Shown: one piece after another, positions 1,503 through 6,172 of the stretch
Numbering within the stretch: the first letter of the stretch is position 1
Layout: every line of letters starts with the position of its first letter
Source of the DNA: Candidatus Zixiibacteriota bacterium
GTDB lineage: Bacteria > Zixibacteria > MSB-5A5 > SM1-73
Direction: 5' to 3'
Length of the DNA: 6,295 bases
NCBI GenBank assembly: GCA_023127875.1
Contig: JAGMFA010000121.1
Span: 1-6,295, forward strand
The notes under the pieces: model-generated
What the model was told of the DNA's origin: nothing
Seen by the model: the letters and a program-made list of their open reading frames with translations, nothing else
Databases searched by the model: none
Position numbers and translations under genes: made by a program

Positions 1503-1844
1503 ATGACTGATTCTATATACTCTCGTTACTGTGTACAAGAAAAAATGAAATTCGTTGTGTTTTTGACCCTGGGAATTTTTCTTCTGAAGCGGGTGCCCAG
1601 AAATCTGAAACTCTGTGAAGTGAAATCCGTTTTAAGAAAAGTGAAGGGAGTCGAAAACCTGCATGAGTTGCACGTGTGGAGCATTTCTTCTGAAGATTTA
1701 GCACTCTTTTGCCATGTGATGATAAAAGACTTAGGCATCCACTCTGCCCAGAATATATTAAACCAGCTCCAATCACAGCTTAAGGAAAGATTTGGGATCG
1801 AGCACACCACCATACAGTTTGAGTGTGGGTGCTGTACGACATAA
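1503..1844 (+). CDS. CDF metal transporter C-terminal domain fragment (probable remnant)
   Basis: From about residue 26 to 107 the 113-residue product reads like the cytoplasmic dimerisation domain of cation diffusion facilitators (CzcD/ZitB type). It has VPRNLKLCEVKSVLRKVKGV, then the family phrase NLHELHVWSI with H54 and H57, ALFCHVMIKD with H71, and GIEHTTIQFE with H101, and it ends in a CGCC cluster. Full CDF proteins are about 300 residues, with six membrane helices before this domain. Here only a short hydrophobic stretch, KFVVFLTLGIFLL (16-28), precedes it. That stretch could be a scar of an internal deletion. There is no convincing ribosome binding site before ATG 1503 or the internal ATG at 1545, so the start is uncertain. 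A functional stand-alone metal-binding domain is possible, but a decayed gene next to repeat DNA is likelier. A full-length relative would export Zn, Co or Cd from the cytoplasm. Confidence 0.7.
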   Translation: MTDSIYSRYCVQEKMKFVVFLTLGIFLLKRVPRNLKLCEVKSVLRKVKGVENLHELHVWSISSEDLALFCHVMIKDLGIHSAQNILNQLQSQLKERFGIEHTTIQFECGCCTT

Positions 1845-1868: not shown

Positions 1869-1909
1869 AAGACCGAAGGTAGCTTAAAATTACCTTAACA
1901 AACGGTCTT
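1869..1909 (+). other. Imperfect stem-loop between CDF fragment and sigma gene
   Basis: AAGACCG/CGGTCTT (1869-1875 with 1903-1909) and AAGGTA/TACCTT (1876-1881 with 1891-1896) stack into a 13-pair stem with a six-base bulge (1897-1902) on the 3' side. Only three T follow the 3' arm. It may act as a weak terminator isolating the sigma operon, or its 3' side may simply overlap the sigma promoter. Neither is proven. Confidence 0.4.
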
Positions 1910-1926
1910 TCAGCCGAAAACGTATC
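1898..1926 (+). promoter_or_regulatory. Candidate ECF-type promoter of the sigma operon
   Basis: ACAAAC (1898-1903), then 17 bases, then CGTATC (1921-1926), resembles the AAC-type -35 and CGTA-type -10 used by many ECF sigma factors (for example TGAAAC-N16-CGTA of Bacillus SigW). Transcription would start near 1931-1934, giving a very short leader before ATG 1945. ECF genes are often autoregulated, so the position is apt. Such short motifs occur by chance, so confidence is low. Confidence 0.3.
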
Positions 1927-1944: not shown

Positions 1945-2634
1945 ATGATCTCTGCTAAATTTGGGGAGCAAAAGTTCGTTAAAGAAGGAAAAAAGGATGC
2001 CGACTCCAAGATTACGCAAAAGAAGTCCAATAGAACAGAGTCCAGCGCAGAGGACAAGGATCTTTTAGACATCATTGAGAGGGCGAAGAAAGGAGACCAG
2101 AGCGCTTTCCAACAGATCGTAGATAAGTATAAAACCCAGGTGGCCAGCATCGCTTACAAGATGGTGGGTGATTATGAAGACGCCAAAGATATCTCGCAGA
2201 TAGTTTTTGTCAAGACCTATCAAAATCTGGTCAACTTTGACACCACCAAGAAGCTTTCCACCTGGCTTTATCGAATAACCATTAATGCTTCTATTGATTT
2301 CATCCGAAAACATAAGAAGCATAAGCATGAGCTTTTAGATAACATATTCGGCGAACTGAAGGAAAAGAAGCAAGATGTAGAGAAAATTTATCAGCGCAAT
2401 TTAATAAAATGGGCGATTAATGATTCCATGGCGGCGCTCAATCCGAGACAAAAGGCGGTTTTTGTCCTGCGGGATCTGGAGGGGTTAGATATTAAGGAGG
2501 TTGCCCAGATAACTGGCATGCCACAAGCTACTGTGCGGTGGTATTTACATAGAGCACGATCCAAACTGCGAAGTGAGCTGACCAAGCACCATCCTCAACT
2601 ATTAAAAAAGATGGGGATAAGACATGAAGTGTAG
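1945..2634 (+). CDS. ECF (sigma-70 family) RNA polymerase sigma factor
   Basis: A 229-residue extracytoplasmic-function sigma factor, which directs RNA polymerase to a stress regulon. Residues 1-38 are a charged, low-complexity extension not typical of the family. Sigma region 2 spans about 54-124, with KYKTQVASIAYKMVGDYEDA, the core-binding stretch DISQIVFVKTYQNL and the -10-reading helix around STWLYRITINASIDFIRKHKK. A linker rich in Lys and Glu (125-150) leads to region 4 (about 154-212), whose helix-turn-helix DLEGLDIKEVAQITGMPQAT...WYLHRARSKLR reads the -35 element. There is no region 3, as expected. ATG 1945 follows GAGAAGG (1934-1940) at short spacing, and no better start lies before the conserved part. 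The last 11 bases overlap the start of the anti-sigma gene, which implies translational coupling. I cannot name the ECF subgroup. Confidence 0.95.
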   Translation: MISAKFGEQKFVKEGKKDADSKITQKKSNRTESSAEDKDLLDIIERAKKGDQSAFQQIVDKYKTQVASIAYKMVGDYEDAKDISQIVFVKTYQNLVNFDTTKKLSTWLYRITINASIDFIRKHKKHKHELLDNIFGELKEKKQDVEKIYQRNLIKWAINDSMAALNPRQKAVFVLRDLEGLDIKEVAQITGMPQATVRWYLHRARSKLRSELTKHHPQLLKKMGIRHEV

Positions 2635-3100
2635 AAAGGCTAAAAAGCTGATCCTCAGTTATGCCGAGTTAGAATCGCCCCTGAAGAAGAGACTGGATGA
2701 GCATCTTTTATCCTGCCCTCACTGCTCATACGAATTCACCCTCCACCTGAAATCCATTAATCTGCTTAAAGAAGTCATTAGCTTCGAGGAGTCCAAAGAT
2801 TTCTGGGAGGGCTATCAGGTTAATCTAAAAAGAAAGATTGGCTCAACTCCTTTGTGGAGCAGAGCCTGGACAAAAGTGGAAGGGTTAACCAGCCTCTTCA
2901 GAACCCCGGTTTTGGGCCCGGTTCCCGCTTATGTATTCTCCTTTGCCATGATAGTACTTTTGACCTTGAGCCTTTATCCGGGCTTTTTTTCCTCCAAAAA
3001 TGCACAGGGTTTCAAAAACAATCTGGTGGCTTATGAAGGGGAATTGCTTTCTGCAGTAGATGATGGAGGGGTGACCATCTATACCTTGGGGAGCAGATAG
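2624..3100 (+). CDS. Membrane-anchored zinc-finger anti-sigma factor
   Basis: The 158-residue product starts inside the sigma gene. Its N-terminus carries the zinc-binding anti-sigma (ZAS) pattern: C3 early, then H27-x3-C31-x2-C34 in DEHLLSCPHCSYEF. This domain binds and blocks ECF sigma factors in the cytoplasm. A linker (about 45-95) leads to one hydrophobic helix (about 98-121, VLGPVPAYVFSFAMIVLLTLSLYPG). That leaves only about 36 residues outside the membrane, a short target for site-1 proteolysis. Translation coupling comes from the 11-base overlap. The gene stops at TAG 3098-3100, but the same frame is open for 28 more codons to a TGA at 3185-3187 that overlaps the next ATG, so the true or ancestral C-terminus may lie there. 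No sequence outside the ZAS domain and the helix is recognisable. Confidence 0.9.
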   Translation: MKCRKAKKLILSYAELESPLKKRLDEHLLSCPHCSYEFTLHLKSINLLKEVISFEESKDFWEGYQVNLKRKIGSTPLWSRAWTKVEGLTSLFRTPVLGPVPAYVFSFAMIVLLTLSLYPGFFSSKNAQGFKNNLVAYEGELLSAVDDGGVTIYTLGSR

Positions 3101-3187
3101 TACAAGGTTAAAAAAGAGGATCTGGAAAAAACGATCAGGGTGAAGAGGAAAATCCTCCGAAATTTGATAACGTTTAGGGGAGTATGA
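3101..3187 (+). other. In-frame extension of the anti-sigma frame beyond TAG
   Basis: Directly after TAG 3098-3100 the anti-sigma frame continues without a stop for 28 codons. It begins YKVKKEDLEKTIRVKRK, is rich in Lys and Arg, and ends with TGA 3185-3187. ATG 3184-3186 of the next gene overlaps that TGA as ATGA, the commonest coupled junction in bacterial operons. It may be a recent nonsense mutation, a sequencing or assembly error, stop read-through, or chance; 28 open codons alone are not significant. Confidence 0.4.
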
Positions 3188-4209
3188 AGTCGAGGAAACA
3201 GAAGGCGGCAGTTCTTCTCTGGCTTTCCGGGATGATGATCTTTTTAGGGGGGTGTGGCGAAAGTTCGCTTCAAGGTCTGGAGGAGGATTTAGCCAAAGTT
3301 GTGGAAAAGGCGGGACCATCTGTCGTCTGCATAATGGCTAAAAACGAAAGCTCCGGGGAAGTGAAGTTCGGCTCCGGAGTGATTTTGGATGGGGGGTATA
3401 TTCTTACCACAGAAAGTATCTTCGACAACGTGGATAACATCACCTTTAAACTACAGGACGGGCGGGTAATAAACGATCACGAGATCGTTGGGATATCTTG
3501 TGACTTCGAAACCAATGTCAGTTTGATTCAGGTGGAAAATAAAGAACTTAAGCCCATCCGCATTATGGAAGAAGGGAAGGTAGAGAACGGATGTCTGGGC
3601 ATTGCCTTAGGGAATACCAATTATTCCAAGGGCTTGGATGTCAGTCTGGGCACGGTGACCAAATCCTGGATAGGAGGGGCGGACGCATATGATGAGAGCC
3701 TTATGATCTGGCACGGTCCCGTGGTCCCCTACCACGGAGGCACCCCCATATTCAACCGCAACGGAGAGCTTTTAGGTCTAACTGAGGGCATACCCGAAGG
3801 TGAAGGTGGGGTAGTTTTCATTTTGCCTGCCAGAACCTGTATGCGAGTCAGTGAGGTGCTCAAAAAGGAAGGCAAGGTTAAAAGAGGGTGGATTGGAATC
3901 TTCTGCGAAAGAAAGTCCCGGGGGTGTGAAAAAGGAAGGACTTCAGAAGGTGTTTTGATCACCAAGGTGGCCGAAGAAAGCCCTGCCTTTAAAGCGGGAT
4001 TGAATCCGGGTGATAGAATCGTCAGCTTTAACGGAAAACCGATCGAAAGCTCAGCTCAACTCAGAAAGCTTATCTCAGCCACCGGAGTGGGGTCCCACGT
4101 CTTGTTAAGTGTGATCCACCGCAGAGATGAAAAAAGGGGAAATGTCGTAATCAAAACGGCTGAGCATAATGGGCTGGGAATGAGAAGATGTCCCCACCGA
4201 TCAATTTGA
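3184..4209 (+). CDS. HtrA-like pseudoprotease lipoprotein with PDZ domain
   Basis: The 341-residue product begins with a lipoprotein signal: basic MKSRKQK, a hydrophobic run, then lipobox LGGC with acylated C24. G25 at +2 does not match the E. coli inner-membrane retention rule. Residues 34-225 follow the HtrA trypsin-like fold: VEKAGPSVVCI, GSGVILDGGYILT, IVGISCDFETNVSLIQVE, GTPIFNRNGELLGL. Every catalytic residue is replaced. Where HtrA has TNAHVV there is TTESIF (His to S78). Where it has SDLAVV there is TNVSLI (Asp to N111). Where it has GNSGGP there is YHGGTP (Ser to G185 ungapped, or H184). Residues 232-325 form one PDZ domain (RGWIGIF, GVLITKVAEESPAFKAGL, GDRIVSFNGKPIES). ATG 3184 follows AGGGG closely and an in-frame TAG at 3175-3177 bars an earlier start. 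By context it may bind peptides or partners that control the anti-sigma factor or the downstream HtrA; that role is inferred. Confidence 0.88.
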   Translation: MKSRKQKAAVLLWLSGMMIFLGGCGESSLQGLEEDLAKVVEKAGPSVVCIMAKNESSGEVKFGSGVILDGGYILTTESIFDNVDNITFKLQDGRVINDHEIVGISCDFETNVSLIQVENKELKPIRIMEEGKVENGCLGIALGNTNYSKGLDVSLGTVTKSWIGGADAYDESLMIWHGPVVPYHGGTPIFNRNGELLGLTEGIPEGEGGVVFILPARTCMRVSEVLKKEGKVKRGWIGIFCERKSRGCEKGRTSEGVLITKVAEESPAFKAGLNPGDRIVSFNGKPIESSAQLRKLISATGVGSHVLLSVIHRRDEKRGNVVIKTAEHNGLGMRRCPHRSI

Positions 4210-4351: not shown

Positions 4352-4516
4352 ATGGCTATCGATCCGATTTGCCTGATGGAGATAGACGAGAAGAGCGCTC
4401 CCGCCAAGAGCGTATTTAATGGTCAAACTTTTTATTTCTGTAACGAAAGTTGTAAACAGAAGTTCGAAGAGGATCCAGAAAAATATATAGACGTGGAAAG
4501 GAAGGAAGAAAGTTAA
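4352..4516 (+). CDS. Small YHS-domain protein
   Basis: A 54-residue protein that is essentially one YHS domain: DPICLMEI at 4-11, the spaced GQTFYFCNESCKQKF at 24-38, and the closing EEDPEKYI at 39-46. Conserved Cys are C7, C30 and C34. YHS domains occur in heavy-metal P-type ATPases, multicomponent monooxygenases and many small free-standing proteins, and are thought to bind metal; no reaction is known for the free-standing form. A perfect AGGAGG (4341-4346) lies five bases before ATG 4352, so this is a translated gene despite its size. It stands between the two HtrA-type genes, 142 bases after the first and 117 before the second, with no overlap, so it may have its own promoter. No signal peptide is present, so it should be cytoplasmic. 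The metal link with the CDF fragment upstream is suggestive only. Confidence 0.9.
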   Translation: MAIDPICLMEIDEKSAPAKSVFNGQTFYFCNESCKQKFEEDPEKYIDVERKEES

Positions 4517-4626: not shown

Positions 4627-4633
4627 TTTGAAA

Positions 4634-6172
4634 ATGCCGGTGGGCAACATGAGAAAAACCCGCATCATATTTGGGTCTATTTTATGCGGGATGATAGTTG
4701 GAGCAGGCATAGTAATTTTGCTTTCGGCTTTAGGATTCTTGCAATCCCCGCTTTCCACAGGGACCACAGGATCAGATGAGAATCACCTTTTTCCACCAGC
4801 ACCCAAGATGGTGCAAACCGTCGCTTCCCTCCAGGATGAGATAACCAGTTCCCGCCAGAACGCCATCGTCCGGGCGGCACAGAGGGTGGGTCCAGCCGTG
4901 GTATCCATCAGCGTGGTTCAGGTGAGGGTGATCAGAGAGCATCCTTTTTTCTCACCATTCGGGGATAAGTATTTTGACGAGTTCTGGGGAAAGTTCTTTC
5001 GCCCGCGGGAATATAAGGAGAAAGTTTACAGCATAGGCTCCGGGTTCATAATAAACCATGACGGATACATATTGACCAATGCCCATGTGGTAAGAGGGGC
5101 AGACCAGTTGAAGGTAAGTTTGACCACCGGAGAGGAGTATGAGGGAAAAGTGGTGGGATTAGATGAGGTCTCAGACTTGGCAGTGGTGAAGATAGACACA
5201 GAAAATTTGCCCTCGGTGGTTCTGGGCAATTCCGATGATCTGATAATCGGGGAGTGGGCTATTGCCATAGGCAATCCCTTCGGCTATCTGCTGGACGATC
5301 CCAATCCCACCGTGACCGTAGGGGTTATCAGTGCGGTGAATCGAGACATCAAAAGAGAAAGGGGACAGGTTCAGATCTACAGAAAGATGCTCCAGACCGA
5401 TGCCGCCATAAATTTAGGAAACTCAGGTGGCCCTTTGGTTAATGCCTCTGGGGAAGTGATTGGAATCAATACTTTCATCTTCACCACCAGCCGGGGCTCT
5501 GAAGGGATCGGCTTTGCCATACCCATTAATCGAGCCAAGGCCATACTTTCAGATCTGATCCAACACGGCAGTGTCATCCCTGCCTGGATTGGCTTAAGAG
5601 TCCAGGAAGTCAATCCCATTCTGGCGCAGAGCCTTGATTTGAAGAAGGTTGAGGGGGTGATCGTATCCGACGTGGAGGAGGAAAGCCCGGCACAAAAGGC
5701 TGGACTCAAAAGAAAAGATGTGATAATAGAGGTGGATGATCAGAAGATAAAAAACTTAAGTGACTGGGAGGATTTTGTCTATCTGGCAAGAGCAAAACAA
5801 AGTCTGAACATCGGTTTTCTGCGGGATGGCAAAAAGAAGGATGCCCGATTGTTGCCGGAAGCACTTCCCACTCAAGCAACCAAAAGCTCTCAAAGTAAGC
5901 TGGGAATAACTGTGGCTAACATAAGTTCGTCCATTGCTTACCGCCTGGGAATAAACGATCGAAGAGGAGTGGTTATCGCCGGTGTGGATAAAGAAGGCAT
6001 CGCCTACGAAGCAGGTCTGGAGGTGGGAGATATAATCCGAAGAATCAACGACCAGCCCATCCGAAACGTTGAAGACTATGATAAGATAATTAATCGGATA
6101 AAAAACAAAGATAGATTGATTCTGTTGATCGAACGGGATGGCGCTTTGTATTTTGTTTCAATAGAGCTGTAA
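4634..6172 (+). CDS. htrA: HtrA/Do-family periplasmic serine protease
   Basis: The 512-residue product (numbered from ATG 4634) degrades or refolds damaged envelope proteins. A basic start (NMRKTR) and hydrophobic helix at about 11-34 anchor or export it; no lipobox or clear signal peptidase site is seen, so an uncleaved inner-membrane anchor is likely. The protease domain (about 76-310) has an LA-type loop rich in Phe (HPFFSPFGDKYFDEFWGKFF) and an intact triad: H151 in TNAHVV, D181 in SDLAVVKID and S264 in GNSGGPL. PDZ1 spans about 317-413 (AWIGLRVQE, SPAQKAGLKRKDVI) and PDZ2 about 422-512 (LGITVANIS, AYEAGLEVGDIIRRIN). This is the usual Do/DegP/DegQ layout and near-usual length. A TTG six bases earlier gives 514 residues but has poor ribosome binding site spacing. 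It is the catalytic counterpart of the dead paralogue upstream, and a natural target or regulator of the ECF system. Confidence 0.96.
   Translation: MPVGNMRKTRIIFGSILCGMIVGAGIVILLSALGFLQSPLSTGTTGSDENHLFPPAPKMVQTVASLQDEITSSRQNAIVRAAQRVGPAVVSISVVQVRVIREHPFFSPFGDKYFDEFWGKFFRPREYKEKVYSIGSGFIINHDGYILTNAHVVRGADQLKVSLTTGEEYEGKVVGLDEVSDLAVVKIDTENLPSVVLGNSDDLIIGEWAIAIGNPFGYLLDDPNPTVTVGVISAVNRDIKRERGQVQIYRKMLQTDAAINLGNSGGPLVNASGEVIGINTFIFTTSRGSEGIGFAIPINRAKAILSDLIQHGSVIPAWIGLRVQEVNPILAQSLDLKKVEGVIVSDVEEESPAQKAGLKRKDVIIEVDDQKIKNLSDWEDFVYLARAKQSLNIGFLRDGKKKDARLLPEALPTQATKSSQSKLGITVANISSSIAYRLGINDRRGVVIAGVDKEGIAYEAGLEVGDIIRRINDQPIRNVEDYDKIINRIKNKDRLILLIERDGALYFVSIEL

Follow-up and report, generated by a model that had tools for sequence, protein, structure and literature searches.

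A DegS-shaped HtrA lipoprotein with a lost catalytic triad in an ECF sigma/anti-sigma operon of Zixibacteria

Gene layout and properties of the degenerate HtrA

The window, that is, the whole stretch of 6,295 nt that was analysed, comes from an uncultured Zixibacteria lineage, and all relatives of its HtrA-like lipoprotein (pseudo-HtrA) whose organism is named among the matches listed are also Zixibacteria. The gene had been placed at 3184..4209 in an earlier note on this DNA; its coordinates and frame were correct, as were the sigma, anti-sigma and active HtrA genes that the note implied. The features of the window are the following:

1503..1844, + strand, CDF metal transporter fragment (C-terminal dimerisation domain only)
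1899..1924, + strand, promoter-like site CAAAC-N17-CGTA, about 45 nt upstream of the sigma start codon
1945..2634, + strand, ECF sigma factor, 229 aa (Sigma70_r2 and Sigma70_r4)
2624..3100, + strand, membrane anti-sigma factor, 158 aa, overlapping the sigma gene (zinc finger and one hydrophobic segment)
2966..3097, + strand, predicted periplasmic tail of the anti-sigma factor (13-locus alignment)
3184..4209, + strand, pseudo-HtrA lipoprotein, predicted to be DegS-shaped, 341 aa (ATG at 3184, stop ending at 4209)
3184..3255, + strand, lipoprotein signal peptide and Cys24 (lipobox LGGC)
3415..3417, + strand, Ser78 at the catalytic His position (alignment)
3514..3516, + strand, Asn111 at the catalytic Asp position, within conserved C-D-F-E-T-N (alignment)
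3664..3678, + strand, conserved S-W-I-G-G, residues 161-165, before the active-site Ser region (alignment including DegP)
3736..3738, + strand, Gly185 at the catalytic Ser position (alignment)
3919..4143, + strand, PDZ domain of the pseudo-HtrA (PF13180, residues 246-320, E 9e-15)
4183..4206, + strand, C-terminal octapeptide R-R-C-P-H-R-S-I-COOH of the pseudo-HtrA (conservation)
4352..4516, + strand, small YHS-domain protein, preceding the intact HtrA
4628..6172, + strand, intact Do-type HtrA with two PDZ domains (TIGR02037 over cut-off; H-D-S intact)

A CDF transporter of 303-311 aa occupies the equivalent place in two related loci (L003 and L005), whereas only the C-terminal domain is present in the window. 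The YHS-domain gene stays with the gene corresponding to the intact HtrA in L008 and L024, apart from the sigma operon. The frame at 382-834 encodes a protein that looks secreted and carries a dockerin type I domain, dockerin-like frames recurring near several related loci, and similar non-coding-looking sequence was seen by eye at 1-180 and about 1108-1290, likely a dispersed repeat.

Trypsin_2 (residues 63-199) and PDZ (residues 246-320) domains were both detected above the curated Pfam cut-offs, identifying the HtrA/DegS fold, and the best NCBIfam match, to the Do/DegP subfamily (E 7e-40), lay far under the cut-off of that family. The earlier note had located S78, N111 and G185 (with H184 adjacent) at the positions of the catalytic residues. 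Alignment with the intact HtrA of the window gave the same assignment, and an HMMER alignment to DegP agreed in register, the sites thus being assigned by sequence alignment and not by atom superposition. The replacement sites lie in conserved motifs: T-E-N (S in 3), C-D-F-E-T-N and G-T-P-x-F-N. The His-Asp-Ser signature of HtrA peptidases was complete in none of the 120 listed family proteins. A triad elsewhere in the domain, which the note had set as a test of its claim, was not found, as neither the 30-row nor the 81-row alignment has a His in an invariant or near-invariant column. The S-W-I-G-G stretch, presumably loop L3 of DegP/DegS, is invariant in the 30-row alignment (W162, I163, G164 and G165 in 120/120 listed proteins), and the PDZ domain carries a conserved R-G-W-I-G-I stretch. 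Judged from its sequence, the pseudo-HtrA is without the residues required for cleavage of the anti-sigma factor.

The lipobox, described as good in the note, reads LGGC, with Cys at position 24 in 112/112 listed proteins having that column. The residue at +2 after the lipidated Cys is other than Asp in 108 of the 112 readable listed proteins. According to the sorting rule of E. coli lipoproteins, a non-Asp residue at +2 leads to the outer membrane; by this rule, a short-tethered protein might therefore not reach an anti-sigma factor located in the inner membrane.

AlphaFold2 models were obtained from 30 rows (mean pLDDT 83.8) and, for the mature pseudo-HtrA, from 81 rows (mean pLDDT 88.0, pTM 0.84). 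The best solved structure by Z was DegS 3gdv, with values of 29.0 and 28.9 and an rmsd of 2.5-2.6 over 286 residues, followed by other DegS entries and then by AlgW (about 27) and MucD. Foldseek E-values ranked DegP entries first, yet with a TM-score of 0.60 vs 0.75 for DegS, and the best PDB match by sequence was DegP, DegS being favoured by TM-score and Z only. Within the predicted models, DegS is the nearest in domain arrangement.

The last eight residues are the most conserved stretch of the pseudo-HtrA, with a mean majority fraction (81 rows) of 0.90, the values for the dead protease domain and the PDZ domain being 0.72 and 0.58, respectively. Each of the 119 listed proteins whose C-terminus could be read has the ending R-R-C-[PAV]-x-[RKQ]-[SACP]-[IL]-COOH, with R334, R335 and C336 present in every one of them; the ends of divergent members are RRCSNRSI (P0121 and L009), RRCSNRPL (P0122) and, in the most distant one (L023/P0123), QRCRQRPL. 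In the second AlphaFold2 model, the RRCPHRSI block is predicted to be ordered (mean pLDDT 84), as neither strand nor helix. The tail as a canonical ligand of its own PDZ domain was considered and rejected, since neither AlphaFold2 model has a strand at 334-341, though the segment is predicted to be ordered. Cys106, Cys219 and Cys336 are all present in 114 of the 116 listed rows that are readable at the three positions; Cys106 is missing in L023 (L009 has a Cys one place earlier) and Cys219 in P0118, with the tail retained in these proteins. A disulfide of Cys336 with Cys106 or Cys219 may be questioned, each partner being absent from some members that keep Cys336.

Conservation of the family and of its sigma/anti-sigma neighbourhood

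The family sample consisted of the best 120 of 549 matches (E <= 1e-3), among them the window's own protein (P0001) and a few fragments. The His position was occupied by N in 114 proteins and by S in 3 (3 unreadable; the window's own protein counted), the Asp position by N in 114 and D in 3 (3 unreadable), and the Ser position by G in 71, S in 18, C in 14, A in 9, T in 5 and P in 3. Three further members, P0121, P0122 and P0123 (P0123 being 99% identical to L023), were retrieved with a profile built from the most divergent sequences, and all three are dead; among the next 49 profile matches (P0124-P0172, the best of P0124-P0187), H-D-S was present in all 46 that could be read (P0140, P0163 and P0169 were unreadable). 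The gap between both groups is sharp: dead members extend down to E 5e-113, and the next 49 matches, at 1e-41 and weaker, carry H-D-S wherever readable. Among the members examined, the pseudo-HtrA family is dead and widely separated from active HtrAs.

Values of omega (NG86) were 0.085-0.144 for the pseudo-HtrA gene (five pairs), similar to the 0.095-0.159 of the neighbouring active HtrA (four pairs), and were 0.119-0.183 for the anti-sigma gene and 0.044-0.062 for the sigma gene (five pairs each), most dS values being near or above 1, so that only the order of size of omega counts. Internal stops were absent from all 12 genome copies of the pseudo-HtrA. Three triad losses in one copy might be read as the mark of a decaying duplicate en route to loss, an explanation that is hardly credible against the low omega, the uninterrupted frames and the sharing of the losses by the whole family. 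Isolated decay was rejected on account of the family-wide triad loss and the low omega.

The order sigma, anti-sigma, pseudo-HtrA (referred to here as the trio) was found in 10 of 10 loci from a named genome collection. Among 132 genomes of the phylum, a pseudo-HtrA was present in 12 (E <= 1e-60) and the trio in all 12, including G110 (L024) and G126 (L023). A full-length anti-sigma (E below 1e-50) was detected in 13 of the 132, namely these 12 genomes and G109, whose sequence ends 42 nt past the anti-sigma gene. Matches to the anti-sigma at E <= 1e-5 extended to 99/132 genomes, the weaker ones covering mostly the zinc-finger part, and a sigma homologue (E <= 1e-45) was present in 87/132. Of the 74 sigma-containing genomes without the trio, 17 were examined (L071-L087), and none of these has an HtrA in the available downstream sequence of 1.5 kb or less. 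In one of the 17, G127 (L071, about 1230-1500), where no pseudo-HtrA was found, the anti-sigma frame ends beyond the zinc finger and includes neither the membrane segment nor the periplasmic tail. The tight link between pseudo-HtrA and anti-sigma comes from one lineage, so that shared descent explains part of it, and the case of G127 is a single genome. The comparison of orthologues suggested in the earlier note gave family-wide triad loss and a conserved trio, not orthologues that mostly keep the triad; its proposal that the pseudoprotease is maintained, in connection with sigma and anti-sigma, was borne out by that loss throughout the examined family, by purifying selection and by the conservation of the trio. 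The RseB-like or decoy-DegS role at the anti-sigma put forward in the note has indirect support in the co-occurrence of the two genes.

The anti-sigma factor gave weak matches to zf-HC2 (Pfam) and to antisigmaE, NF052368 (NCBIfam). C3, H27, C31 and C34 of its N-terminal zinc finger are invariant in 10 rows, a hydrophobic window lies at residues 96-114, and the tail beyond the best window comprises 36-46 aa, with a conserved stretch N-L-V-x-Y-E-G-E-L-L-S-x-x-D-D-G-G-V-T-I-Y in the 13 loci aligned. The last residue of the window-type anti-sigmas is basic in 14/14. A single-pass zinc-finger anti-sigma encoded by a gene overlapping that of sigma is the arrangement of RIP-controlled ECF sigma factors. 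An RseP-type site-2 protease (PF02163 over cut-off) was detected in 12/12 trio genomes; it was equally present in each of the 14 control genomes, which makes this evidence weak.

A scan with the pattern AAAC-N15..20-CGTA revealed CAAAC-N16/17-CGTA in 12 of the 14 loci, placed 43-52 nt upstream of the sigma gene (the window, L002-L010, L024 and L067), with N17 except for N16 in L009, and with L007 and L008 being near copies. The site has one base different in L001 and is absent in L023. Bacillus SigW promoters are of the class TGAAAC-N16-CGTA, which the site upstream of sigma resembles, and SigW is also the best NCBIfam match of this sigma factor, under its cut-off. The promoter-like site suggests that sigma probably autoregulates its operon. 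Membership of the downstream HtrA in the sigma regulon was not supported, since none of the scanned loci showed an AAAC-CGTA site ahead of its HtrA gene. A divergent second ECF sigma gene was observed on the minus strand in three loci (L006:3925, L007:4841 and L010:4270), preceded by GAAAC-N16/17-CGTA.

A second sigma/anti-sigma/HtrA operon type

A second type of sigma/anti-sigma/HtrA operon was met in the phylum while checking other HtrAs of the trio genomes (L104:285-2539, L105:4208-6295, L106:5928-8687, L107:3515-6239, L108:3447-6194 and L111-L149). A five-member profile retrieved it from 27/132 genomes (E <= 1e-60), and 41 matches from 40 genomes came up with a broader profile; the set analysed comprised 39 loci from 39 genomes (the 27, 11 more and G079), HtrA frames of 527-542 aa in G001 and G007 and the second match in G005 being omitted as ordinary by length. 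Intact H-D-S was found in only 3 of the 39 HtrAs (G105, G106 and G107). His was kept in 4/37 readable proteins, Asp in 9/38 and Ser in 28/39, with 22 different dead patterns, in which single letters are unsure where the Asp position lies beside alignment gaps (RET, RQS, RDS and SDT rows). Among the best 120 of 4479 protein matches to this type, the patterns were SNS in 116, TNS in 3 and GNS in 1.

A zinc-finger anti-sigma was found upstream of HtrA in 37 of the 39 loci, within 300 nt in 36 and at about 630 nt in L131; none was found in L116, which starts at the contig end, or in L140, with a short frame. A sigma gene lies upstream in 36/39 loci (none in L116, L131 and L140, and a short match only in L112). 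The anti-sigmas of this type end in Tyr or Phe in 35 of 37 readable cases, L143 and L149 ending in Pro. The PDZ domain of DegS prefers carboxy-terminal aromatic residues, and the Tyr/Phe end of these anti-sigmas has the appearance of a PDZ ligand. As a control, 17 other loci yielded 14 zinc-finger ORFs, the 14th being that of G079; none of the 13 without an HtrA in the 0.4-1.4 kb downstream ended in Tyr or Phe, and one ended in Trp, several of these ORFs being longer and possibly not anti-sigmas. Fisher's test of the aromatic ends against the control gave 3e-10, a value to be taken as a guide only, with related rows and a small control. The window-type anti-sigma ends in a basic and not an aromatic residue, and the PDZ-tail contact suggested for the second type is therefore not transferable to it.

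In a quick tree of 60 chosen rows, with two long branches and 13 rows of odd composition, the pseudo-HtrA family, the second type and the other HtrAs each fell on one side of a branch (support 100, 86 and 99, respectively). Parsimony with regain allowed requires 2 changes only, so that repeated loss of the triad depends on the assumption that its residues are not regained.

Known systems, proposed role and alternatives

The pseudo-HtrA is like DegS and AlgW in combining a protease domain with one PDZ domain, in its membrane anchor, in its link to an ECF sigma factor and a single-pass anti-sigma, and in giving the best Z. It differs from them in lacking His, Asp and Ser and in being encoded inside the sigma operon. 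DegS is anchored by an N-terminal membrane helix, in contrast to the lipid anchor of the pseudo-HtrA. E. coli RseA is cleaved by DegS and shielded by RseB (PMC10202637), and RseB and MucB protect their anti-sigma factors from cleavage (PMC3815931, PMC10202637). A non-proteolytic periplasmic role, as proposed below, and a gene directly after that of the anti-sigma would make the pseudo-HtrA analogous to RseB/MucB; it differs from these in the HtrA-PDZ fold of its predicted model, and no RseB/MucB match was obtained at E <= 1 among the families covered by the Pfam and NCBIfam scans. MamO, a degenerate HtrA, is reported to bind metal and to activate proteolysis by MamE (PMC4794232). MamO and the pseudo-HtrA have in common a degenerate triad, a retained non-catalytic role and an adjacent active HtrA, whereas the di-His metal motif and TauE domain belong to MamO, and the PDZ domain, lipobox and anti-sigma neighbour to the pseudo-HtrA, in which neither a conserved His for a di-His motif nor TauE (Pfam) was found.

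The earlier note knew of no described system with this gene order. In this regard, HtrA genes near ECF sigma/anti-sigma genes are known from M. tuberculosis, with sigE and with rseA in an operon with htrA and tatB (PMC10027907), and from P. aeruginosa, with the operon algU-mucA-mucB-mucC-mucD, MucA being the anti-sigma of AlgU (PMC3815931). The neighbourhood itself is thus not new, but these HtrAs are described as proteases. No report of a pseudo-HtrA in a sigma/anti-sigma operon was found in the titles and abstract starts listed from open-licence PMC text on HtrA, pseudoprotease, ECF and Zixibacteria topics. These comparisons suggest that the combination is new and its parts known.

We consider it probable that the pseudo-HtrA is a membrane-anchored, dedicated, non-proteolytic partner of the anti-sigma encoded just upstream, DegS-shaped and probably RseB-like, and we infer its contacts with the anti-sigma tail and with a ligand. 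In the resting state, the zinc-finger anti-sigma would hold the ECF sigma, and the pseudo-HtrA would grip the periplasmic tail of the anti-sigma, hiding it from the true site-1 protease. A protein that senses and holds but does not cut implies that this protease must be another HtrA or protease; it may be one of the cell's intact HtrAs, which exist in the trio genomes. The PDZ domain and linked loops would sense a ligand, such as an unfolded protein end or other envelope signal, and release the tail, which would be cut by the intact HtrA and then by RseP; the freed sigma would probably activate its own operon. As to the direction of control, we lean towards such a shield, an activator or presenter being a serious though lesser candidate. 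More tentatively, the HtrA of zixibacterial sigma/anti-sigma operons may be a receptor and not a protease in two operon types, by repeated independent triad loss. The sensor would then read the anti-sigma: in the second type, a C-terminal Tyr/Phe would fit the PDZ groove, whereas in the window type the dead domain would do the reading, the invariant RRCPxRSI end of the pseudo-HtrA acting as a built-in lock.

In the usual account of envelope-stress signalling, DegS both senses the stress and cuts the anti-sigma. Here, a sensor-shaped operon protein is without cutting residues in two operon types of one phylum, and intact and dead HtrAs coexist among relatives of the second type. This suggests a protease fold reused as sensor or shield, and HtrA-PDZ sensing would thus be separable from cutting, which is directly testable with natural variants. 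After MamO, the operon would also provide another instance of an HtrA pseudoprotease retained under selection.

A different partner was contemplated in the earlier note, which suggested an adaptor for the active HtrA encoded downstream. In the same vein, the dead HtrA could assemble with or activate that HtrA and lie in the sigma operon merely for co-expression, a MamO-like arrangement for which the reported activation of MamE-dependent proteolysis by MamO provides a precedent (PMC4794232). An intact HtrA does lie within about 0.45 kb of the trio in the window, L001, L002, L003 and L010, and in L005 (L005:6912-8432) the gene is 0.55 kb away and interrupted by an in-frame TAG. However, the trio stays where that HtrA is reduced to a 172-aa piece (L006:9006-9524), split in two frames 3.8 kb away (L008:12815-14357), displaced by 2.5 kb (L024) or not detected over 8 to 9.5 kb of downstream sequence (L007, L009 and L023). 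Of the 12 loci that can be judged (L004 ends too early), 7 thus show no HtrA next to the trio, or one that is truncated, interrupted or distant, which weakens the adaptor proposal; the intact HtrA is a neighbour and not a constant partner of the trio. The lack of an AAAC-CGTA site before the HtrA gene in the scanned loci also speaks against this arrangement, which we regard as unlikely.

The old active site might have been rebuilt for thiol, redox or metal sensing, as could be suspected from the new conserved residues in place of the triad, from the three conserved Cys and from the nearby CDF and YHS genes, both of metal-related families; yet divergent members lose Cys106 or Cys219 and keep the tail, and the conserved His of a MamO-like di-His site was not found in the 30-row and 81-row alignments, so that we hold such chemistry to be very improbable. 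A little less remote, although still quite doubtful, is that the protein is merely part of the regulon, produced on sigma activation to act in the periplasm as a chaperone or as a lipoprotein that binds peptides, and takes no part in signalling. HtrA folds are able to bind unfolded chains, and the gene lies within a putatively autoregulated operon. On the other hand, the pairing with a full-length anti-sigma would be unexpected for a mere target gene, and so would the existence of the second type, in which the anti-sigmas mostly end in aromatic residues.
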